A DNA stretch of 10,426 nucleotides from an uncultured Desulfobacterales bacterium. GTDB lineage: Bacteria; Desulfobacterota; Desulfobacteria; Desulfobacterales; UBA11574. The position numbers and the translations under genes are program-made. Positions 844 through 9,862 of the stretch are shown in pieces. The DNA lies in the NCBI GenBank assembly GCA_937925895.1, contig CALANC010000345.1, positions 1 to 10,426 on the forward strand. Reading direction: 5' to 3'. Numbering within the stretch: the stretch's first letter is position 1; every line of letters starts with the position of its first letter. The notes under the pieces were generated by a model. It saw nothing but the letters and a program-made list of their open reading frames with translations, was not told the DNA's origin and did not search any database.

Positions 844-2340
844 TTACTTATGGCTGAACTCGTAGGCTCCAAGATCGGGCCTGGCGCCACGATGGTTGCC
901 CTCCAGGTCTATTAGGGGGACGCTCCCGGTGGAGCCTCTATCGATGGCCGGGCTCTCTTTTTCCAAATGATAGTTCCCATCCTTTCCCCAAGCGGGCTCA
1001 ACAAAGAGAGGGGCAGCGTAAAAGTTGTTTCCAGGAAGGTCGGAGATGGTTTCGGCAGTGTATTCTTTGTCTCCATGGATAATTACTGAATCGGTCTGGG
1101 GCAAGTAAAACAGGTTGTTTTTCATGATGAGTTTAGTGGTTCGCCCGATAAAAATAGGGGAACTGGGCCCCATTCCTCTGAAGATTGTGTTCTGAATATT
1201 CAAGGATATGGGCAGGTCCGGATTATCATATTGCACGTACATCAAGTAGTTACCCCCTGCCATATCATCGACGGTGACATTCATTATCTCAAAACGGGCA
1301 TTTTTCTTCTCTGAATCTATCACAATCGTGGACCAAGGTGTTCTTTCGGCATTGCCATCACCCCTACCGTAAATAAGACTGTGTTCTATCCGGCTCCCAT
1401 CACCCCAGAGTTTAATACCGTCGCAGGAATTGTTGGCAACGATGGCTCGTCGTATGAGGGTGTTTTCAGCCTTGGAATCCAAGCCATCACCCAAGTTATG
1501 CGCTGCAACGGTGTCTACGATCTCAATGGGTCCTTCAGCCGGCTCAATCCCGAATCCATCGGGGCGATCGTAAGGTCGGTCGGAACCGTCACCTCCTTGG
1601 TAGTAATGTCCGCTATAGGAAAGGCGACATCCCTGAATGACGACATCTCTCCAGCCGCCATGCTCCCCTTTAGGTCCCCCAATAGAACCGTAACCGGCAT
1701 ATTCGATGCGGCAATTTATCATTTTAAGGTCTTGGATATCTTGAATATTGATGCCAAATTCATCCACATGATGGATGTAAAGATCTCTGAGAACAATGTG
1801 AGCGGCCGGCTTCTCTAAAATCTCAATTGCATCACGAAAATAGACCGCTTTTCCCTTTGCTCGTTCGTCGTGAGTAATCTCCAGGTTTTCAATATGTACG
1901 TGATTCGCACCGGAGAGATTAATGGCGGTTAACAGGTTGTTTTGTCCGACCAAAATTGGACGATGCCCCTCCTCCCCTCTAATCGTGACCACGGCTCCCG
2001 CTTTTCCGGATGGAGGGGTTAAAATGTCTTCGTCGAATCTACTCAAGACGTAACGTCCCCTCATAATTAAGAGCGTATCGCCCGGTTTCAATTTTCGTGA
2101 GGCATGACCTGGAGAAGCCCAGGGTGCGCTGCGATTCCCCGGATTATGATCATCGCCCGCAGGAGATACATAGTAGGTTGTGCCGGTGGATAACGCCAGG
2201 GCTTCGCTTGTCTCGGCAACTGGCAAGGTGAATAAAAGGGTCAACTGAAGCAAGAAGACTAACAGCTGTTTTTCCCCTACGCTTCCTCGTCCTTTTTTCG
2301 TTATCTTTCCATGAGCTGTTTGCTTCCCTTTGTCCTGCAC
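844..2340 (-). CDS. Secreted right-handed beta-helix protein (DUF1565-like, choice-of-anchor Q type end)
   Basis: This is an exported protein of about 498 residues. After a basic N-terminus it has a hydrophobic segment (LLVFLLQLTLLFTLP) and a likely signal peptidase I site near SEALA. The mature part opens with YYVSPAGDDHNPGN, followed by W, a KPGDTLLI turn and RGRY. This opening is typical of DUF1565/pectate-lyase-like parallel beta-helix proteins. The middle is a run of short strands (HIENLEIT, IVLRDLYIHH, VVIQGCRLSYSG, IRRAIVANN, FEIMNVTVDD) consistent with helix coils. The end, SPAIDRGS then DLEGN..G..PDLGAYEF, matches the closing module seen in many choice-of-anchor Q beta-helix proteins. 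A role in binding or cleaving polysaccharide is plausible, but no catalytic residues can be named. I chose a GTG start (2338-2340) because AAGGAGG lies six bases upstream. The longer TTG start at 2358 would place that site inside the gene. The closer ATG (2342) is out of frame and soon meets a stop. The gene is divergent from the c-di-GMP cluster and probably unrelated to it. Confidence 0.85.
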   Translation of the reverse strand: MQDKGKQTAHGKITKKGRGSVGEKQLLVFLLQLTLLFTLPVAETSEALALSTGTTYYVSPAGDDHNPGNRSAPWASPGHASRKLKPGDTLLIMRGRYVLSRFDEDILTPPSGKAGAVVTIRGEEGHRPILVGQNNLLTAINLSGANHVHIENLEITHDERAKGKAVYFRDAIEILEKPAAHIVLRDLYIHHVDEFGINIQDIQDLKMINCRIEYAGYGSIGGPKGEHGGWRDVVIQGCRLSYSGHYYQGGDGSDRPYDRPDGFGIEPAEGPIEIVDTVAAHNLGDGLDSKAENTLIRRAIVANNSCDGIKLWGDGSRIEHSLIYGRGDGNAERTPWSTIVIDSEKKNARFEIMNVTVDDMAGGNYLMYVQYDNPDLPISLNIQNTIFRGMGPSSPIFIGRTTKLIMKNNLFYLPQTDSVIIHGDKEYTAETISDLPGNNFYAAPLFVEPAWGKDGNYHLEKESPAIDRGSTGSVPLIDLEGNHRGARPDLGAYEFSHK

Positions 2341-2346
2341 ATTTGA

Positions 2347-2353
2347 CCTCCTT
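2347..2353 (-). promoter_or_regulatory. Strong Shine-Dalgarno deciding a GTG start
   Basis: On the minus strand AAGGAGG is followed by TCAAAT and then GTG, a six-base spacing. An ATG overlaps the GTG by one base but opens an out-of-frame reading frame of about a dozen codons. The site therefore fixes the beta-helix start at 2340. Confidence 0.7.
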
Positions 2354-2401
2354 TTCAACCCGATTTAAAGGAACCAATTTAACTTACGATTTTTTTTATG
2401 T

Positions 2402-2430
2402 CATTTACTTAAAATAAAGACAAGCGTCAA
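2402..2430 (-). promoter_or_regulatory. Weak candidate promoter for the beta-helix gene
   Basis: On the minus strand TTGACG (2425-2430) is followed after 17 bases by TAAATG (2402-2407). The -35 element is good and the -10 is poor (three of six consensus bases). Transcription would begin roughly 55 bases before the GTG start. This is inferred from consensus only. Confidence 0.25.
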
Positions 2431-2541
2431 TCTTTAAAGGTCGTTACTTGGGGTTGGTCGGATGGCTAAATAATTGAAATTTACAATATTGTCACACATC
2501 TCCCATAGCCTTCCAGCGCCATATACTGTATTGTTTTCCCC

Positions 2542-2570
2542 TTGACACACAACATACATTAAATTACAAG
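2542..2570 (+). promoter_or_regulatory. Candidate upstream promoter of the c-di-GMP cluster
   Basis: A perfect TTGACA (2542-2547) is followed after 17 bases by TACAAG (2565-2570), four of six matches to the sigma-70 -10 consensus. It lies 63 bases upstream of a second, similar element, so the two could form tandem promoters. Confidence 0.35.
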
Positions 2571-2604
2571 GTTATTAGGGCTTAATTGGGTATAGTTCAC
2601 ACAT

Positions 2605-2633
2605 TTGACATGTTATAGTGAGTGCAGTATTCT
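2605..2633 (+). promoter_or_regulatory. Candidate main promoter of the c-di-GMP cluster
   Basis: A perfect TTGACA (2605-2610) stands 17 bases before TATTCT (2628-2633), which keeps the TAT start and the final T of the -10 consensus. Transcription would begin near 2640 and leave a leader of about 120 bases before the HEAT-repeat start codon. This is the best sigma-70-like match in the divergent region. Confidence 0.45.
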
Positions 2634-2761
2634 TGCCGGAAAGTAGATCAGGTTAATGTAGCAGAGCTGGAAGTAGACATACGAGTGGAAGCAGAAGCGA
2701 TATAAAACGCAGAGATACCCGATAATAAGTCTAAAAACTGTATGCGCTGACAAGAGGACGT

Positions 2762-4534
2762 ATGGTTCAAGGACGCACAAAAGAAAGCATCGCTTCTTTT
2801 GCTGAAGGACAGACAGCCAAGGAACTTCAAGCCGTTAAAGCACTTGTCTCTTCCTTTGTTATCGCTGCTAAAAACTATGCCATCTATCCTGAAAATCATG
2901 TAACCTGCCAAAACACCCTCCAGACCGTCATGTCCCGTCTGGACATTTTTCTGAAAAATTATGGCGATCTCAAAATTGATGTCGAAAAGGACCGGCTTCT
3001 TTTTGAGGGCGCAACCGTTCACCAGGATGATCCCGAGAGAGAAAGATTGGCCTTTCCTCTATTTCGAGACGGCATCCAGTGGCTGGAGTTTCAGGAAGGA
3101 CTCGAGCTTCGGGAGATCTCTGGTTTTTTAAAAATTCTCAATCAATACGGAAGGCTGTATGAAGAGGCTGAAGGAGATCTTGTAACCGCCTTGTGGGAAA
3201 GCGATTTCCCTCATTTGCGTTACGCGGCCACGGATGTTCTATGGAAGGCCGGGACAGTAAAAGATTTTTCTGCCTTTAAAGTGACCGAGGATGAGCAACA
3301 GGCCACGTTTGATGATGAAGCTGAGCAGGCAGAACTGCATGATACGGCAAAGGAGGTGGTGGATGATGACCAACAGGCCGAAGCCCATAGGCCTGGAGAC
3401 CCGAGCACTGGTGCAGACATAATTCTCTCGACCATGGATAGAACCATCTGGCAGCTCACCCAAGAAGAATTGCGGGAGTTAGAGGAACTGGTTGCCGAAG
3501 AAGAAAGCCAAAGCAGAACCGATGACATGTTTGACCTCTGGACGGTCATTCTCCAGACCCGAAATACACCAGAGGAATACGAGACTATTCTTGAATTTAT
3601 AAAAGAGGAATTCAAGAACACCCTCGCTCAAGGTGAATTCCGGATCGCTCTCGATTTCCTGGAGAGTTTACAAAAGACCTACCAATCTGATAAAATTGAG
3701 AAATCCTGGGCTCGGCCTATGTTGGGCAGGTTCTTAATAGATATTTTCGACGTTCAGGTGCTAGGTGTTTTCCAGCAAATTTTGCCAACTCTTGATAAAC
3801 TACATATCGATCGTATCAAAGTTTTTCGGCGGTTGGCTCACCATTTCCCGCCGGCGGCTATTACCGCTCTCGCTCCCATTTTACTGGAGAAACTATCCGC
3901 ACCTGCAGAACGTCAGCTCATGGAAATCATCGGCTCGCTGGCACTAAAAGATATTCATCCTTTAAAACAGTTGCTGGATCGACCGGAAGAGGCTTTAGTC
4001 AAAAAGCTCGTCTATATTCTCGGACACATTAAAGGTGAAAAAACCAAGCTAATCCTACTCAAAATGACGCGCCATACATCGGGCCTGGTGCGTCTGGAAG
4101 CGCTGAAGGCCTTAACACGTCGGGATGCAAAAATGATCAAGGAGCTTTTTCCTCTCATAAACGACCCTATTCTCGCAATTCGCCGGCTGATGTGGAAGTA
4201 TCTGGAACAGCACAAAAACGACGAAATCGGGAACTTGATATTGAGTTATCTTGAGCAGAAAAAGATCCGTCGCAAAGACGATCAGCAGATTCTGAACTGC
4301 TACAAAATTCTCGGTCGTTGTAGCTCCCGCAGCACCATTCCATTTCTGCGCGAATCCCTACTCAGTCAAGGCTGGGATTTCAGTTCCAACAGGTCACTTC
4401 GGCGGCAGGGTGCCGTCGTCGCTTTGCTTGAGCTGCACACAGAAGAAGCCGAGGAAATTCTTAAGAAAGCTTCAAAAAGCCTGTTTCCAAGTGTCCGCTC
4501 TGCCTACCAAAAAGCCTTGAAGGATCACCGATGA
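2762..4534 (+). CDS. HEAT-repeat scaffold protein, first gene of the c-di-GMP cluster
   Basis: This is a cytosolic protein of 590 residues with no signal peptide or membrane segment. Residues 20-130 form an alpha/beta N-terminal module (helices around ALVSSFVIAAKNYAIYPENH, then LKIDVEKDRLLFEG, then LEFQEGLELREISGFLKIL). It resembles the N-terminus of the HD-GYP protein encoded next. Residues 175-255 are an acidic, Glu/Asp/Gln-rich linker. From about 290 to the end the chain is repeated amphipathic helix pairs of HEAT type, clearest at 385-480 (e.g. RQLMEIIGSLALKDIHPLKQLL, and GLVRLEALKALTRRD followed by LFPLINDPILAIRRLMWKYL) and again at 545-590. HEAT repeats bind other proteins, so a scaffold role is likely; no enzyme motif is seen. 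GAGG lies four bases before the ATG. The stop overlaps the start of the HD-GYP gene (ATGA), so translation of the two is probably coupled. The repeat family is well supported; the exact role is inferred. Confidence 0.85.
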   Translation: MVQGRTKESIASFAEGQTAKELQAVKALVSSFVIAAKNYAIYPENHVTCQNTLQTVMSRLDIFLKNYGDLKIDVEKDRLLFEGATVHQDDPERERLAFPLFRDGIQWLEFQEGLELREISGFLKILNQYGRLYEEAEGDLVTALWESDFPHLRYAATDVLWKAGTVKDFSAFKVTEDEQQATFDDEAEQAELHDTAKEVVDDDQQAEAHRPGDPSTGADIILSTMDRTIWQLTQEELRELEELVAEEESQSRTDDMFDLWTVILQTRNTPEEYETILEFIKEEFKNTLAQGEFRIALDFLESLQKTYQSDKIEKSWARPMLGRFLIDIFDVQVLGVFQQILPTLDKLHIDRIKVFRRLAHHFPPAAITALAPILLEKLSAPAERQLMEIIGSLALKDIHPLKQLLDRPEEALVKKLVYILGHIKGEKTKLILLKMTRHTSGLVRLEALKALTRRDAKMIKELFPLINDPILAIRRLMWKYLEQHKNDEIGNLILSYLEQKKIRRKDDQQILNCYKILGRCSSRSTIPFLRESLLSQGWDFSSNRSLRRQGAVVALLELHTEEAEEILKKASKSLFPSVRSAYQKALKDHR

Positions 4535-5976
4535 CTCAGGGAACCAGATCATTACACGAAGATTTTTTTAGGACTTTTTACAGACTGGTCTATTTGGCCA
4601 AGATCCATCAGGACAACAATCAGTTGATAGTGGAATGCCTTGATGATTTCATGCAGGTTATGAGACGGCTGTTTTTAGATGATGATCAAATTAAAATCCA
4701 GATTTCCCACGGGAGTATTTATTTGCAAGATGAGAAACTGCCCTACCGGCGAGAACTCGAAAGTCTTATTAACAATTTACACCAGTACTTCGAAAAGCGT
4801 AATCTTCAGGGACTTCGTTTTTCCACCGTTATCCAAGATGCACCCGTCGAAGAGATCCTCGCTTTCAGCCGCACCTTGAACAACACCGAGCAAGAGGAGG
4901 TTCCCTTGAATTGGCTCGTCGAACAATTTGAGAACCTGGGCCTCGTCTGGGCGGAAGTTGTCTATGAAGAAGATACGCCTTCTACAGAACAGATCCCTGA
5001 AACCGACCCCCAGGATCAGGTGCAAAAACGGAAGGAAAAAGCCCGACAATGTTACTTTTATGCCCTGGACTCGATAAAAGAGGTGGCCGAAAAGATTTCC
5101 TCCGCAAAAAAGGCAGGGGTTCGTAAACCTCTCCGGGTGATCCAAAACATCGCGAATCTCGTCTTAGAGGATGAGCCAATTGTGTTGGGGCTCAGCACCA
5201 TCCGTGATTTTGATGACTATACCTTTACCCATTCGATAAACGTAGCGATACTCTCCATATGCTTAGGACATCGCGCCGGGTTGTCGCGGGAATCTCTTCC
5301 CAGGCTGGGAATGTGTGGGCTTTTTCACGATCTTGGAAAGGTAAATATATCGGTTGATATTCTCAAAAAACCCGGGGAGCTGAACAAAAGGGAGCATGAG
5401 GAGATAGAGAAACATCCCCTATACAGTGTCATCCAAATTATCAAATTGCAGGCGGCCCATGATCTCAAGGCAAAAATCCTCCTCCCCCCCTTTGAACACC
5501 ATTTGAAGTATGATCTTTCGGGGTACCCCAAGACCACCCGCAAGAAGCCCTTGAGTTTCTTTGGCCGTATCCTAAACATTACAGACGTCTTTGACGCCAT
5601 AACCTCCCCTCGAGTATACCGCCATTTGTCTTTTAGTCCAGATCAGGCTCTTGGCTGGATGTTGGGCCGCGCAGGAACGGATTTTGATCCGGTTCTCCTT
5701 AAAGTGTTCATTAATATGCTTGGAATCTATCCCATAGGTTCACTTTTAGAACTGGATACGGGGGAGTTAGCCCTGGTAATGGATAACGGGGAAAAGCTCG
5801 ACGGGACGCGACCCATAATCGTGTTGTTGACTGCCGATGGACAGAATGGTTATAAAAAGATCGGTGAGGCGGACCTGGCTGAACGTGACGCCCAGTCCGG
5901 CGCATTCCGGCGAAACATTGTTAAAAGCCTGCATCCTTCTACCTTTGGGATTCAGCCTGCTGAGTTTCTTTGTTAA
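4531..5976 (+). CDS. HD-GYP domain protein, predicted c-di-GMP phosphodiesterase
   Basis: This 481-residue cytosolic protein has an N-terminal module (about 11-120) like that of the preceding HEAT protein, a charged linker (145-180) and a C-terminal HD-GYP domain (about 195-400). HD-GYP enzymes hydrolyse cyclic di-GMP to pGpG or GMP. The expected metal ligands are visible: H234 (in THSINVA), H266-D267 (in HDLGK, with K270), H295 (KHP), H323-H324, and D352 (in TDVFDAIT). The GYP motif is at 331-333. The motif reads HHLKYDLSGYP instead of the common HHExxDGxGYP, so the glutamate after HH and the DG pair are changed. Y230 sits where some trinuclear enzymes have a glutamate, which would suggest a two-metal site. 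No receiver, PAS or other known sensory domain is present, so the N-terminal module is the likely input. The residues 400-481 form an unassigned beta-rich tail. The start codon overlaps the previous stop by four bases. Activity is predicted, not shown. Confidence 0.9.
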   Translation: MTQGTRSLHEDFFRTFYRLVYLAKIHQDNNQLIVECLDDFMQVMRRLFLDDDQIKIQISHGSIYLQDEKLPYRRELESLINNLHQYFEKRNLQGLRFSTVIQDAPVEEILAFSRTLNNTEQEEVPLNWLVEQFENLGLVWAEVVYEEDTPSTEQIPETDPQDQVQKRKEKARQCYFYALDSIKEVAEKISSAKKAGVRKPLRVIQNIANLVLEDEPIVLGLSTIRDFDDYTFTHSINVAILSICLGHRAGLSRESLPRLGMCGLFHDLGKVNISVDILKKPGELNKREHEEIEKHPLYSVIQIIKLQAAHDLKAKILLPPFEHHLKYDLSGYPKTTRKKPLSFFGRILNITDVFDAITSPRVYRHLSFSPDQALGWMLGRAGTDFDPVLLKVFINMLGIYPIGSLLELDTGELALVMDNGEKLDGTRPIIVLLTADGQNGYKKIGEADLAERDAQSGAFRRNIVKSLHPSTFGIQPAEFLC

Positions 5977-6090
5977 AAACCAAAATTTCTTGCCATCTGG
6001 GATAGAAAGGATTAATCTACATTTGGATTTATTTGTAGCACAGGAAACAGCCAACATACCCGATACAATAATAATTCCACGGTGGGCTAG

Positions 6091-6960
6091 ATGAAATTAA
6101 AGTTAACGCTGATTGGTGTTGTGATTCTCTCGTGGTTCCCAATGGGATGGGCTCAGGCTGCCAACCTATTATATGCAAGGGCCGGAGAGCATGGATCTTT
6201 TACCAGAATTGTTTTTGAATTCCAAGATGTCGTTCGAGCCGAGAAACCCGTAATCACAGACAAAGGAAAATTTTACCTGGTTTTCCTTGATAGCTCCACG
6301 ACCTTGCCCCGCCAAACATTGAACAAGACAACCAAAGGTGTTGACGCCGTCGAATTTATTCAGAGAAAATTGCATTTGACAGCCAACATCACACTGGCTT
6401 TTCCATATTTTAAGCTTAAAACCTTTTCTCTGCCAAATCCCGACCGATTTGTCATTGACGCCTACCGGACATCTTCGCGCCCGAAGGAAATTGTGCAAAA
6501 AGAACCTGCGCCTACCGAGCCCATCGCGAGGGTATTCAAGGAACCAGCTCCAAGTAAACAGATAACTGATACGAAGAAGTCCTCAGCAGAGGTGGCAAGA
6601 ATCCCTTTAGAAATAGAACCCGAGACCCCGAATATACCGGCATTGGATGTGAGCCAGAGACGGGTGGAAAAAAAACCTGTTATACAGGCTCAACCGGCGA
6701 GTCAGGTGCCTGCAAAGCAGGATGAATTGCCCCCTTCTTTTTACGGAAATTACAACGTTCAGACTTACCTACTAATCCTTTTAAATTTTTCTACGGTTAT
6801 TATTATTGCAATATTGGGTTTCAATCTATTGAAGAAAAGACCCTCAATTGATTCAGGCCATCTTGACGAAATTTTGGGTTCTCTGAAGACGACAGACGAA
6901 AGTATTGCTGCCATAGATGTCATGATTAATAAAGAACTGAAAAAGCTAGATCACTCTTGA
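6091..6960 (+). CDS. AMIN-like periplasmic domain protein with C-terminal membrane anchor
   Basis: This 289-residue protein starts with a Sec signal peptide (KLKLTLIGVVILSWFPMGW, cleavage after AQA at about 23). Residues 24-127 are a beta-rich domain resembling the AMIN family, with FTRIVFEFQD, KFYLVFLDSS, the VDAVEFIQRKLHLTANI stretch and the NPDRFVIDAYR ending common in AMIN-type domains. AMIN domains bind peptidoglycan or secretin/pilus components in the periplasm. Residues 128-215 are a Pro/Lys/Glu-rich linker long enough to span periplasm. A single membrane helix follows at about 225-247 (YLLILLNFSTVIIIAILGF), then KKR and a cytoplasmic tail of some 40 residues predicted to be helical. 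The expected topology is periplasmic N-domain and cytosolic C-tail, so it could link the envelope to the cytosolic partners encoded around it. A 114-base gap separates it from the HD-GYP gene. The Shine-Dalgarno (GGTGG, five bases before ATG) is weak. The AMIN assignment is by pattern only. Confidence 0.7.
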   Translation: MKLKLTLIGVVILSWFPMGWAQAANLLYARAGEHGSFTRIVFEFQDVVRAEKPVITDKGKFYLVFLDSSTTLPRQTLNKTTKGVDAVEFIQRKLHLTANITLAFPYFKLKTFSLPNPDRFVIDAYRTSSRPKEIVQKEPAPTEPIARVFKEPAPSKQITDTKKSSAEVARIPLEIEPETPNIPALDVSQRRVEKKPVIQAQPASQVPAKQDELPPSFYGNYNVQTYLLILLNFSTVIIIAILGFNLLKKRPSIDSGHLDEILGSLKTTDESIAAIDVMINKELKKLDHS

Positions 6961-6974
6961 CCACTGGGGATAGT

Positions 6975-7286
6975 ATGACTGAAGAAGCCCAGACAGAATT
7001 CGCTATAGGCCTTTCGGACGAGGAAATAGAAGACCTCGGGAAAATGATAAAGTCACTCAAAGAGGAGCAGACTGTAAAACCCACGGGTTCAGCCGGCGAA
7101 GATGTTCAGAAGCAGATTGGATCCATGAGTGCAAACCTTGTCCAATTTGGTCACATGTTGCTGAAATTCGACGCTAAAATGAAGTCCTTTTACGAAATCA
7201 TACGCCTTTCTTGTAAAAAAGACGAGATGTTGAACCAACGTATGGACGCCATCATTAAAATTATGAAAGGTCGAACCAACTTATAA
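6975..7286 (+). CDS. Small helical protein of unknown function
   Basis: This acidic-then-basic protein of 103 residues has no family I recognise. It has no signal peptide, membrane segment or cysteine motif. The N-terminal part (LSDEEIEDLGKMIKSLKEE) and the longer C-terminal part (about 45-98, with hydrophobic residues spaced in heptad-like fashion through LVQFGHMLLKFDAKMKSFYE) look helical and perhaps coiled-coil. An adaptor or oligomerising partner is therefore possible. I start it at the ATG 6975, after GGGGA at a four-base spacing. A TTG at 6957 overlapping the previous stop would add six residues but has no ribosome site. It sits 14 bases after the AMIN-like gene and 16 bases before the PilZ fusion gene, so it is surely co-transcribed. 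It may be the partner of the short cytoplasmic tail of the AMIN-like protein, which is inference. Confidence 0.75.
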   Translation: MTEEAQTEFAIGLSDEEIEDLGKMIKSLKEEQTVKPTGSAGEDVQKQIGSMSANLVQFGHMLLKFDAKMKSFYEIIRLSCKKDEMLNQRMDAIIKIMKGRTNL

Positions 7287-7288
7287 CT

Positions 7289-7300
7289 AGGAGGGGGGGG
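7289..7300 (+). promoter_or_regulatory. Ribosome binding site merged with a run of eight G
   Basis: AGGAGG (7289-7294) runs straight into a homopolymer, giving eight consecutive G at 7293-7300 and then TA before the ATG at 7303. The spacing from AGGAGG to the start is eight bases. Loss or gain of G by replication slippage would change the spacing, and so the translation rate, of the PilZ fusion gene. Confidence 0.7.
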
Positions 7301-7302
7301 TA

Positions 7303-8481
7303 ATGATTGACCGAATTGAAAAACAGGACAGTCTCGTTAGGCGCATTGTTGATGGTTCTGTTACGATCGATTCCGTCAAGGAGTTTGAAAAGCTATTTAA
7401 GGTTTTTCCAAAAGATCCGTATCTCCATAGAGTTTTCGCCGACCTTTTGAAACAAAACAAATCGTTTGAAGCCGCTGTGGACGCATATGAATCGGCAACC
7501 CAGCTTTTTATCGAAGCAGATCTGACCTTGCAGGCTATTGTAACCAAAATCCTTGAATGGCGAATCTTTAGGCCGTCGGATCAAGAGGGACAAGCTTTCT
7601 ATTCATCTCTTCGTGAAGGCAGTGCCAAAAACACGGCACTGCAGCGTTTTTTTATCGACATGACATATCCTGAAATGATCGCTTTTATGTTTGCGTTGAT
7701 GCCCCGGCGTTTTTCTGCCGGCAGCACGGTGAAAAGATTTGGCGATGAAGAAGCCTCCCTCTATTTTGTAGTGTCTGGAGCTCTAGAAGAAACCACCTAC
7801 CATCGGCTGCTGACGGAGGGATGGATTCAAAAGAAATCATCGAAAGACTTGGTCGAAAACGATTTTTTTGGCGAAATTTATCCGTTTGAGGAGGAAAAAT
7901 TATCTCGATCAGATATCGAAACCATCACTCGTGTTGAATTAGTAGAAATCACCAAATCAAGGCTGATGACGATATGCAGAAAATATCCAAATATTAAGCC
8001 TCTTATGAATGACCTGTATGAGGCCCGTTCGGAATCTGATAAAGAAGGATTTTCAAGGACGGTTCGCAGAACAGTAAGGCACCAGCTGCCGATACAGATA
8101 AATCTCCAAATTTTTCAAGACCAACCTGACAAGGCCCCCATGGAGTTCACCGGATTCACGGAAAATATTTCATTGGGGGGGGCCCGTGTTGTTTTGAGCG
8201 AAAAACATTATCAAACCGGTCGTGCCGATTACCTGACCGGGAAAAAGGTTAAGATCAAAATTGGTTTGCCGACAGCGTCGGGCAAGCTTTCTATATTGGG
8301 TACTACCGTTTGGGGCAAGGAGGTTTATATTGAAGGAAAAGCAACCGCAGTGGTAGGCATCCAATTCCAAAAAATGACCGATACGGACCGCAGGGTGTTG
8401 GAAGATTATTATTATGGATCCGAGGGTGAGCAAAATCTGATCTGGAGCTTATGGGACTCGCTAATGGAAAAACAGCTCTAA
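7303..8481 (+). CDS. TPR-like / cyclic-nucleotide-binding / PilZ fusion protein
   Basis: This is a 392-residue cytosolic protein with three parts. Residues 24-95 are helical and TPR-like (FPKDPYLHRVFADLLKQ, then SFEAAVDAYESATQLFIEAD). Residues 125-240 have the pattern of a cyclic-nucleotide-binding (cNMP) beta-roll, with FSAGSTVKRFGDEEASLYFVVSGAL, then G190-E191 (NDFFGEI) and R202-S203. These align with the Gly-Glu and Arg-Ser of the phosphate-binding cassette of CAP-type domains. Residues 250-370 are a PilZ domain that keeps both c-di-GMP-binding motifs: RxxxR (R255 and R259 in RRTVR) and NxSxxG (N288, S290, G293 in NISLGG). PilZ proteins bind cyclic di-GMP and pass the signal to a partner. 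There is no helix-turn-helix, so this is not a CRP-type regulator. It may integrate two nucleotides. A strong but G-rich Shine-Dalgarno precedes it, and a second G8 run lies inside the PilZ motif. Confidence 0.85.
   Translation: MIDRIEKQDSLVRRIVDGSVTIDSVKEFEKLFKVFPKDPYLHRVFADLLKQNKSFEAAVDAYESATQLFIEADLTLQAIVTKILEWRIFRPSDQEGQAFYSSLREGSAKNTALQRFFIDMTYPEMIAFMFALMPRRFSAGSTVKRFGDEEASLYFVVSGALEETTYHRLLTEGWIQKKSSKDLVENDFFGEIYPFEEEKLSRSDIETITRVELVEITKSRLMTICRKYPNIKPLMNDLYEARSESDKEGFSRTVRRTVRHQLPIQINLQIFQDQPDKAPMEFTGFTENISLGGARVVLSEKHYQTGRADYLTGKKVKIKIGLPTASGKLSILGTTVWGKEVYIEGKATAVVGIQFQKMTDTDRRVLEDYYYGSEGEQNLIWSLWDSLMEKQL
8175..8182 (+). repeat. G8 homopolymer inside the PilZ motif
   Basis: Eight consecutive G occur at 8175-8182. 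They encode the end of L291, G292, G293 and the first base of the following alanine, i.e. the closing glycines of the NxSxxG c-di-GMP motif. A one-base slip here would frameshift the protein and destroy the rest of the PilZ domain. Confidence 0.75.
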
Positions 8482-8503
8482 ATTTTAAAATGATGGGGAT
8501 CAA

Positions 8504-9433
8504 ATGACAGAAGAGCAGGACAGTGAAATGGCACCCGCTCCAATTATATGGGCTGTAGGCGGAGGAAAGGGTGGCGTTGGAAAGAGTGTCGTAAGTACCC
8601 TATTGGCCTTTTGGCTGGCCCGGATGGGAAAAAGGACCGTACTTATAGACGTCGATTTGGGTGGTGCCAATCTCCACACCCTTTTGGGGATCAAAAACCC
8701 GCCCCGGACTTTAAACGATTTTATTACCAGAAATTTTGATTCCTTAGAAGAAATTTGTGTCGACACTGAGGCAAAAAACCTTCGCCTCATCAGTGGCTCC
8801 AGTGAAGTTCTTTCTTTAGCGAATCCCCATTTTAGCCAAAAAGTAAAACTCATCAATCACTTTTCCAGATTGGATGCCGACTATGTGGTAATTGATCTTG
8901 GGGCCGGGACGTCTTTTAACGTTCTGGATTTTTTTCTTGTGGCCCATGAAAAAATTATGGTCCTCGTTCCAGAGCCCACCTCGATTCAGAATGCCTATAT
9001 CTTTGTTCGCAATGCGGTTTACCGGAGGTTGAGCCGGCTTTCCACTAAAGACCCATCCCTCCAAACCCTGGTAAAAATTGCTATGGATCCCAAAAATGAG
9101 CTCAAAGTCCGTACCATCAAAGAACTTTTACAGTTCATTGAAGAGTCCGGGGGAAAAGAGGTGGCAGCGCCTCTTGAAAAAGAGGTCAGAGCAATTCAAC
9201 CCGCAATAATTACCAATATGGTTAATGATGATAAAGAAAAAAATGCCGGTCGTATTGTTCAAATTGTTGCTGAAAAGTATTTAATGATTCAATCCACAGA
9301 TTTGGGCAGCGTGTCTCATGATAGGCAGATTTTCTCAATGGTTTCCGACATGGCCCCTTTGATAAACCTGGACCAGTCAAGCCAGGCATTTGCCAACATG
9401 CATGAAATTGTAACAAAACTGTTGAAAAATTGA
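8504..9433 (+). CDS. MinD/FlhG-like deviant Walker A ATPase
   Basis: This 309-residue P-loop ATPase belongs to the ParA/MinD superfamily, closest in pattern to FlhG (also called YlxH or MinD2). It has a deviant Walker A with signature lysine (KGGVGKS, residues 22-28), a switch I region (LIDVDLGGANLHTLLG, D49 and D51) and Walker B (VVIDLGAGTS, D131). The stretch PEPTSIQNAY is typical of the FlhG branch. These ATPases dimerise on ATP, often on the membrane, and place structures such as flagella, pili or chemosensory clusters. The C-terminal helix (FANMHEIVTKLLKN) is amphipathic and might bind membrane, as in MinD. The N-terminus before the P-loop is only about 13 residues and lacks the DQAxxLR motif by which canonical FlhG activates FlhF. 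A flagellar FlhG role is therefore not supported, and no flhF lies next to it. GGGG lies five bases before the ATG. The gene follows the PilZ fusion by 22 bases. Confidence 0.88.
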   Translation: MTEEQDSEMAPAPIIWAVGGGKGGVGKSVVSTLLAFWLARMGKRTVLIDVDLGGANLHTLLGIKNPPRTLNDFITRNFDSLEEICVDTEAKNLRLISGSSEVLSLANPHFSQKVKLINHFSRLDADYVVIDLGAGTSFNVLDFFLVAHEKIMVLVPEPTSIQNAYIFVRNAVYRRLSRLSTKDPSLQTLVKIAMDPKNELKVRTIKELLQFIEESGGKEVAAPLEKEVRAIQPAIITNMVNDDKEKNAGRIVQIVAEKYLMIQSTDLGSVSHDRQIFSMVSDMAPLINLDQSSQAFANMHEIVTKLLKN

Positions 9434-9480
9434 AGGCACACGCCGCTTGTTCTATATTTATTGAGAGTAATTTCGTAATA

Positions 9481-9489
9481 AGGAGGAGG
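9481..9489 (+). promoter_or_regulatory. Strong Shine-Dalgarno deciding a TTG start
   Basis: AGGAGGAGG stands seven bases before a TTG codon at 9497. There is no in-frame ATG nearby, and the protein's RxxxR motif begins only six residues after this TTG. The TTG start is therefore well supported. Confidence 0.75.
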
Positions 9490-9496
9490 CAGAAAC

Positions 9497-9862
9497 TTGT
9501 CAATAAAGGAGAAAAGAAAGCATCCGAGAATTAAAACAGAAAATCTCTTATCTTATGTTTGTATCGATGATGAGGGCAATGAAATCGATGAGGGGATGGG
9601 AAAAATAAAAAATGTAAGCCTGGGAGGTGTCCTCATTGAAACGATTAAACCCATAGGAATGCAGGATATTTTGCTAACGACAATCGGTATTAATGATGAA
9701 ATAATCAATATGAAAGCCAAGGTCGTTTATTGCAAGAAGGAGATCTCCGGAATGTTTCGAACCGGCATTCAGTTCCTTGAAGCCAAAGAAGATAAACAAT
9801 TATTTGTCACAAACCTGATAAAAATTTCCAGCAAACAAAAAACCCAGTCACAAGATCGTTAG
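9497..9862 (+). CDS. Stand-alone PilZ domain protein, predicted c-di-GMP receptor
   Basis: This 121-residue cytosolic protein is a single PilZ domain. The RxxxR motif (R7 and R11 in RKHPR) lies at the extreme N-terminus, and the NxSxxG motif (N39, S41, G44 in NVSLGG) follows, so both c-di-GMP contacts are kept. The remaining strands (VLIET, MKAKVVYCKK, FRTGIQFLE) complete the six-stranded barrel, and a final helix and a polar tail (SSKQKTQSQDR) follow. Such small receptors act by binding a partner when c-di-GMP is bound. The partner here is likely encoded in the same cluster, with the MinD-like ATPase the nearest candidate. It starts with TTG after a very strong ribosome site, 63 bases after the ATPase gene, and appears to be the last gene of the unit. 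The family is sure; the partner is inferred. Confidence 0.88.
   Translation: MSIKEKRKHPRIKTENLLSYVCIDDEGNEIDEGMGKIKNVSLGGVLIETIKPIGMQDILLTTIGINDEIINMKAKVVYCKKEISGMFRTGIQFLEAKEDKQLFVTNLIKISSKQKTQSQDR

Follow-up and report, generated by a model that had tools for sequence, protein, structure and literature searches.

The window, the whole 10,426-nt stretch of DNA analysed here, raises the question of whether a run of seven neighbouring genes encodes a single c-di-GMP-controlled positioning or envelope system, as the original prediction proposed. All seven genes were confirmed to be real, intact and co-directional. The gene for a 590-aa HEAT-repeat protein (2762..4534, + strand, as are all that follow) overlaps by 4 bp the gene for a 481-aa HD-GYP phosphodiesterase-type protein (4531..5976). 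After an intergenic gap of 114 bp come the genes for a protein with an AMIN domain and a transmembrane (TM) segment (6091..6960), a 109-aa soluble protein (6957..7286; TTG start, with an in-frame ATG at 6975), a 392-aa protein with TPR-like, degenerate cNMP and PilZ regions (7303..8481), a 309-aa MinD/FlhG-class ATPase (8504..9433) and a 121-aa protein with a single PilZ domain and a TTG start (9497..9862). A weak promoter-like site (2605..2633, + strand, 10/12 matches) lies ~130 bp 5' of the HEAT gene; the count of such sites in the window hardly exceeds that expected from shuffled sequence.

Judged by gene order in relatives, the run is two joined units and not one kept system. Unit A comprises the AMIN-TM, small protein, cNMP-PilZ and MinD-like ATPase genes, and its exact order is present in 32 of 44 core loci, with one further full copy in a genome (G740) outside the order surveyed. 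Unit B consists of the HEAT and HD-GYP genes, which adjoin each other in all 16 loci read and adjoin unit A in three of them (the window, L237 and L059). The expectation that the gene order would be kept together in relatives was thus not borne out by the neighbourhood check, in which the run falls apart: four genes form a core, and HEAT and HD-GYP a separate pair. Given these 3/16 loci, and because the pair was not found in the 7.5 kb preceding AMIN at L075, where the MinD protein is, among the matches listed, 86% identical to that of the window, we reject one conserved seven-gene operon. What stands of the proposed single system is a c-di-GMP/MinD envelope module with a kept gene order. The terminal PilZ gene is an optional satellite of unit A: relatives occur in the same place at L055 and between the HD-GYP and cNMP-PilZ genes at L237, and a PilZ gene on the opposite strand was detected at the HMM threshold within 1.5 kb past MinD in 10 of 44 loci.

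An integrated seven-gene control system, with HD-GYP and HEAT proteins as its built-in off switch, would account for the co-direction and small gaps in the window and for the three adjacencies. HEAT matches are also found in 13 of 25 core genomes versus 5 of 32 others (raw counts, here and below, uncorrected for relatedness between genomes). Moreover, 27 loci carry short paralogues of the cNMP-PilZ protein, of which 26 could be assigned to an ORF; their most widely shared conserved neighbours are a 447-aa protein (8 loci) and an opposite-strand 97-aa protein (7 loci). The 8 loci with the 447-aa neighbour are those in which tblastn finds a region 23-31% identical to the HD-GYP protein of the window, so that cNMP-PilZ and HD-GYP proteins, albeit different ones, meet there too. 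We nevertheless consider such a system rather improbable: the pair lies away from the core in 13 of the 16 pair loci, as far as the contigs, some of which end nearby, allow it to be seen, and 12 of 25 core genomes yield no HEAT match at E < 1e-40. A functional link between the two units is likely, because the three adjacencies fall in two families, two as same-strand arrangements in one and one as a divergent arrangement in the other. Unit B is an independently distributed and presumably c-di-GMP-degrading pair that, beside unit A in the lineage of the window, plausibly sets the local signal of unit A.

The residues of the HD-GYP protein are consistent with this role. The metal-binding residues (the HD pair and further His ligands) and the GYP motif are kept in 3/3 sequences, with DLSGYP replacing DGxGYP, and the closest solved structure by sequence is 4mcw (E = 1.2e-24), making the protein a putative HD-GYP phosphodiesterase. 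It shares with the HEAT protein an unnamed N-terminal domain, for which Pfam returned nothing usable at E up to 5 and the predicted model was poor (mean pLDDT 45).

Within unit A, the AMIN-TM protein consists of an N-terminal hydrophobic, signal-like stretch, an AMIN domain (residues ~24-126), a disordered linker, one TM segment and a tail of ~40 residues that, from the likely topology, would be cytoplasmic. A Pfam search of the window protein gave no significant support for the AMIN domain. The predicted model has the AMIN beta-sandwich and matches the AMIN domains of AmiC and PilQ, with AmiC as the best fold match. An [IL]Dxx[IL] motif occurs in 30 of 34 tails, and the 109-aa protein keeps the motifs LSxxExxDL and KxxxxNxR across 12 sequences. 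In the cNMP-PilZ protein, RxxxR and [DN]xSxxG are invariant (37/37 sequences), as in PilZ receptors of c-di-GMP, and the protein is a predicted receptor; no relative of known structure was found by sequence. The phosphate-binding cassette of a ligand-binding cNMP domain has a Glu and an Arg. The window protein has E and R near the cassette places and a Pfam cNMP domain over the cut-off; across the family E is found in 15 of 37 sequences (D in 16) and R in 11 of 37, which makes a CRP-like ligand-binding domain unlikely family-wide. Finally, the MinD-like ATPase retains the deviant Walker A motif KGGxGK[ST] (KGGxGKS in the window) with its lysines, the A' aspartates and the Walker B aspartate in 37/37 sequences.

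The solved structures nearest to this ATPase by sequence are FleN and FlhG, which would fit a flagellar number or placement ATPase with c-di-GMP input. Such a role is very unlikely, because no FliG passes the cut-off in 10 core genomes of 90% or higher completeness. FliG is present in 14 of 25 core versus 19 of 32 other genomes, it was not found over the cut-off in the window's own genome (69% complete), and inspection by eye noticed no flagellar genes in core neighbourhoods. Unit A resembles FlhG/FleN and MinD in ATPase class, deviant Walker A motif and nearest solved structures, and membrane-linked positioning would be expected here too; unlike them, its ATPase is not tied to flagella and travels with AMIN, small and PilZ proteins. 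Among distant MinD relatives, a PilZ gene lies within two ORFs in 3 of 65 loci by HMM. This count is too low, since four neighbours picked by eye (L079, L084, L082 and L085), one of them taken as its matched part, have PilZ over the Pfam cut-off, and the HMM count includes only L079. The pairing of PilZ with distant MinD relatives is old or recurrent, not general.

The distribution of unit A bears on a second alternative, a regulator of the division site or of cell-wall remodelling in which AMIN binds septal peptidoglycan as in AmiC and the ATPase acts on division. The fold match to AmiC and the MinD class of the ATPase both point this way. Unit A is, however, patchy: at E <= 1e-70 it was found in 47 of the 389 genomes that represent the order, and it is thus not essential to division in general; nor did reading the neighbour groups by eye reveal a kept division gene adjoining the core. 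We regard this role as improbable, if worth keeping in view. The small gene marks unit A: all 25 core genomes have it, although two of these were recognised via the small-gene search itself, versus 0 of 32 others. In the portions of the literature covered by our search we found no description of the combination; the original prediction had likewise not recognised its seven-gene set as a described system. Unit A is a conserved and apparently undescribed four-gene unit.

Which machine might unit A serve? The run had been described as lacking its target machine. This is true of the 10.4-kb contig, and most core loci have no target machine linked, but in some relatives mglB-mglA or a gene for a PilB-like ATPase lies near the core. 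In family f29, all 12 loci read have a same-strand MglA-like gene 2-5 ORFs 3' of MinD, and 11 of these 12 also have a roadblock (mglB) gene near MinD; a 13th genome, G292, falls outside this count. In G284 and G202, the gene for an MshEN-T2SSE (PilB-like) ATPase ends ~20 bp before the AMIN ATG on the same strand. This linkage is operon-like in these two genomes and loose elsewhere. PilB-like genes are abundant: one is nearby in 7 of 44 core, 3 of 27 short-paralogue, 1 of 13 HEAT-pair and 0 of 76 distant-MinD loci, and with 7/44 against 3/27 an enrichment at the core within the order is not clear. The L259-type ATPase was found at E <= 1e-130 in 6 of 57 genomes, the window's own genome not among them. 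MglA was found in 23 of 25 core versus 29 of 32 other genomes, the genome search failing to find it in core genomes G139 and G196, and PilT exceeded the cut-off in 24 of 25 versus 31 of 32. Because the type IV pilus and MglA are both nearly universal in the sampled genomes, these counts favor neither as the client.

A last alternative is that unit A, like BcsQ or GspE-type machines, might serve exopolysaccharide or protein secretion, as a regulator, rather than pili, a possibility to which we give little weight. In its favor, the linked T2SSE ATPases reach neither the PilB nor the GspE equivalog cut-off and have near-equal scores for the two, and BcsQ, which is MinD-like, serves cellulose secretion. 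Against it, reading the ORF lists near the core by eye brought up no gene for a polysaccharide synthase.

In the polar landmarks HubP and FimV, an exported wall-binding domain, a TM segment and a cytosolic part recruit ParA/MinD-type ATPases. Unit A would be alike in general design and differs in having AMIN in place of LysM, a short tail and no long repeats. The AMIN fold is also a possible reader of a wall mark in the septal targeting of AmiC, as in unit A. In Myxococcus xanthus, the AMIN domains of PilQ bring the pilus machine to the septal and polar wall (PMC10653833), again suggesting a possible wall-mark reader; unlike in PilQ and AmiC, where the fold sits on a secretin or an amidase, that of unit A sits on a single-pass membrane protein. 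The PilZ proteins PixA and PlpA of M. xanthus act on MglA polarity and on that of the pilus machine (PMC8316039), a likeness extended by the MglA-type GTPase and roadblock genes of family f29. In contrast to unit A, the consulted part of PMC8316039 mentions no MinD partner for PixA or PlpA, and G139 and G196 possess the core without an MglA match.

Taken together, we tentatively favor, at somewhat less than even odds, a reading of unit A as a wall-anchored, envelope-spanning, c-di-GMP-gated MinD-type positioning module, whose client would most likely be the type IV pilus or Mgl-type polarity. We infer that the exported AMIN domain, a putative wall binder, would read a peptidoglycan mark at the septum or pole, which the tail of the AMIN protein and the small protein would tie to the MinD-type ATPase. 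Binding of c-di-GMP to the PilZ protein would switch the ATPase between a membrane-bound dimer and a free monomer, so that assembly of the surface machine at the marked site would require the right level of c-di-GMP. More speculatively, unit A may represent an undescribed positioning class, whose MinD-type ATPase depends directly on c-di-GMP for its licence to act, conveyed by a dedicated PilZ adaptor, and on a peptidoglycan-reading AMIN anchor for its targeting, gating surface-machine assembly by both place and c-di-GMP level; the machine would probably be one with a T4P-type assembly ATPase carrying c-di-GMP-binding MshEN motifs.

To our knowledge, how c-di-GMP sets where, and not only whether, surface machines are built is largely an open question. 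The unnamed N-terminal domain of the HEAT and HD-GYP proteins and the 109-aa marker protein provide handles to find and test such systems. If the proposed reading is true, unit A would connect a wall mark with a positioning ATPase by way of a c-di-GMP receptor, in a compact form that can be separated genetically.

The seven co-directional genes divide into two units: a four-gene core (AMIN-TM, a small 109-aa gene, cNMP-PilZ and a MinD/FlhG-class ATPase; unit A) and a HEAT-HD-GYP pair (unit B; 2762..4534 and 4531..5976, both on the + strand). This two-unit anatomy is well supported, as are the AMIN fold, the intact PilZ and MinD motifs and an N-terminal domain common to the two pair proteins. 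HMM scans covered 48 loci (L-numbers; genomes carry G-numbers), cut to 44 (window included) for the gene-order count by leaving out L236, which shares a contig with L078, and L241, L242 and L243, whose MinD scored below 300 bits; L075 and L076 were kept out because they seem to duplicate the contigs of L209 and L059, respectively. The exact order AMIN/109-aa/cNMP-PilZ/MinD was present in 32 of the 44 loci. Among the exceptions, L043, L213, L215, L217 and L223 start at, or close to, the edge of a contig (in L043 a partial AMIN of 38 bits remains, below the 45-bit threshold), L238, L239 and L240 lack both AMIN and the small gene and have a MinD of a more distant kind (305-310 bits), and L221, L222, L235 and L237 lack at least one unit A partner. 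In a close relative, a frameshift apparently splits the AMIN gene (5237-6249 of L209 once turned, the contig being that of L075), and L060 carries a second cNMP-PilZ copy directly 3' of MinD on the same strand (4673-5836, -).

A MinD alignment search (E <= 1e-70) gave matches in 47 of 389 genomes of the window's taxonomic order and 19 of 150 genera, the window's genome included, the remoter distant MinD class making up about six of the 47. One more complete unit A copy lies outside the order, in G740; in a phylum sample (n = 395) with few listed genomes from this order, one genome besides the window's own had a match at E <= 1e-100. In 20 loci of distant MinD relatives (L083 and L086 are distant loci), the gene next after the ATPase encodes DnaJ plus HTH_25, called with Pfam on L083 and by eye elsewhere, and the one after that is, by eye, RluD-like.

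Profile counts for the 109-aa gene, HEAT, PilT, MglA, FliG and an L259-type ATPase used 57 hand-picked genomes: the window's own, 22 with core-type MinD and, among the genomes listed, 34 others, the latter two groups at least 90% complete. Genomes with distant MinD only were counted as others (G053, G085, G192) or excluded (G087, G101, G270). The 109-aa gene occurred in 25 of the 57, namely all 23 picked as core plus G170 and G186, both of which have AMIN, 109-aa and cNMP-PilZ genes; the G170 contig stops inside cNMP-PilZ, and no MinD was recognised in G186. With these two taken as core, which is circular for them, the gene is present in 25/25 core versus 0/32 other genomes.

HEAT and HD-GYP genes were neighbours in 16/16 pair loci read (window included), overlapping in most and separated by a gap in L059, L175 and L255, with split ORFs in L247, L249 and L252; five more genomes with HEAT matches at E < 1e-40 (G017, G022, G235, G274, G333) lie outside this set. 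In the 57-genome sample, such matches occurred in 13/25 core versus 5/32 other genomes (Fisher p = 0.0046, kinship ignored). The pair adjoins the core in only three of the 16 loci (window, L237, L059), some of the other 13 stopping at contig edges (e.g. L247), and the original prediction of seven genes acting as one c-di-GMP-controlled positioning or envelope-machine system is not supported insofar as it takes them for a single kept set. L237 (G284, from the window's family) reads HEAT, HD-GYP, PilZ, cNMP-PilZ, MinD, its genome carrying AMIN and the small gene on a different contig, while the pair in L059 (G139, from another family) is divergent from the core; at L075 (MinD 86% identical), no pair was found within 7.5 kb upstream of AMIN. 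Under a rough model that takes 3000 genes and 11 core genomes in which a pair was read, the chance of three adjacencies is 6e-6 and of two 6e-4; those of the window and L237 may be one ancestral event. The cNMP-PilZ/HD-GYP pairing of activities recurs, because a shorter cNMP-PilZ paralogue outside the core has a different HD-GYP gene nearby in eight loci (L044, L061, L065, L067, L069, L070, L073, L074). No description of this gene set was found by title or abstract start among the papers listed, a weak absence, most subscription papers lying beyond the search. Further genes of the window encode a small SET-domain protein (304-738, +; PF00856, E = 1.2e-13) and a right-handed beta-helix protein (844-2358, -; weak pectate-lyase-type match and choice-of-anchor Q match).

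Profile comparison placed an unnamed domain at the N-termini of both pair proteins (window 2762-3331 in HEAT, 4531-5145 in HD-GYP). Fourteen HEAT against 14 HD-GYP sequences matched with 96% probability (E = 4.3e-9, 122 columns), three control comparisons giving 0.1-0.4%; smaller sets gave 93.4% with six sequences each and 85.1% with five (controls on five, 0.1-0.5%). The domain had no Pfam match over cut-off, and its structure model was poor.

The cassette Glu and Arg and the PilZ motif residues have recognised roles. Across 37 cNMP-PilZ proteins, the key PilZ positions (R, R, D/N, S, G) are invariant; in the cNMP cassette, R fills the arginine position in 11 proteins, while the glutamate position holds E in 15 and D in 16, the window's protein having both E and R. 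Judged by these residues, the protein is probably a c-di-GMP sensor whose cNMP fold has probably lost cNMP binding in most members. The Walker motifs of MinD show no variation (37/37), and the HD-GYP metal residues are kept in 3/3 and line up with 4mcw, a solved enzyme. A single TM segment is present in the AMIN protein, and 30 of 34 tails carry an [IL]Dxx[IL] motif; among the four that lack it, one is interrupted by N and another is frame-shifted.

As for a client machine, FliG was over cut-off in 14/25 core versus 19/32 other genomes, a distribution that disfavours a flagellar client. PilT (24/25 versus 31/32) and MglA-like proteins (23/25 versus 29/32) do not discriminate between core and other genomes. 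Gene linkage offers two leads. The first is family f29, in which 13 genomes have the MinD and 12 loci were read. All 12 carry an MglA-like gene on the MinD strand, 2-5 ORFs downstream, and 11/12 have a roadblock/LC7 gene near MinD; the one MglA-like copy tested matches solved MglA proteins (E about 8e-51), and its roadblock neighbour is over the Pfam cut-off. A 207-aa protein directly after the MglA-like gene (L043 4152-4775) is kept in all 12. By eye, a CheB-like gene lies near the core in L043 (9997-11124), and in L056 the core has parA-parB-like genes about 5 kb away (1919-3548).

In two genomes of genus g105, a T2SSE ATPase with MshE-type c-di-GMP motifs heads the core genes (L259 378-2705, L260 4833-7160). 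The 775-aa ATPase gene of G284 and G202 precedes AMIN on the same strand and ends about 20 bp before its ATG, or overlaps it by 4 bp in G202 if an upstream TTG is the AMIN start. Four stretches of MshE-type c-di-GMP-binding motifs in the G284 protein are over the NCBIfam cut-off; the 775-aa ATPase scores highest as PilB, yet below the equivalog cut-off. In L215-L220 the core has related ATPases nearby, and in L257 it has PilM-, PilB- and PilC-like genes. ATPases of this kind are common, though: by locus class, they occur at 7/44 core (the two query loci among the seven), 3/27 short-paralogue, 1/13 HEAT-pair and 0/76 distant-MinD loci; at E <= 1e-130, the L259-type ATPase is found in 6/57 genomes, the window's not among them. 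By analogy with its protein families, unit A would act in positioning, and a pilus or polarity client, though unproved, is the best of the options tested.
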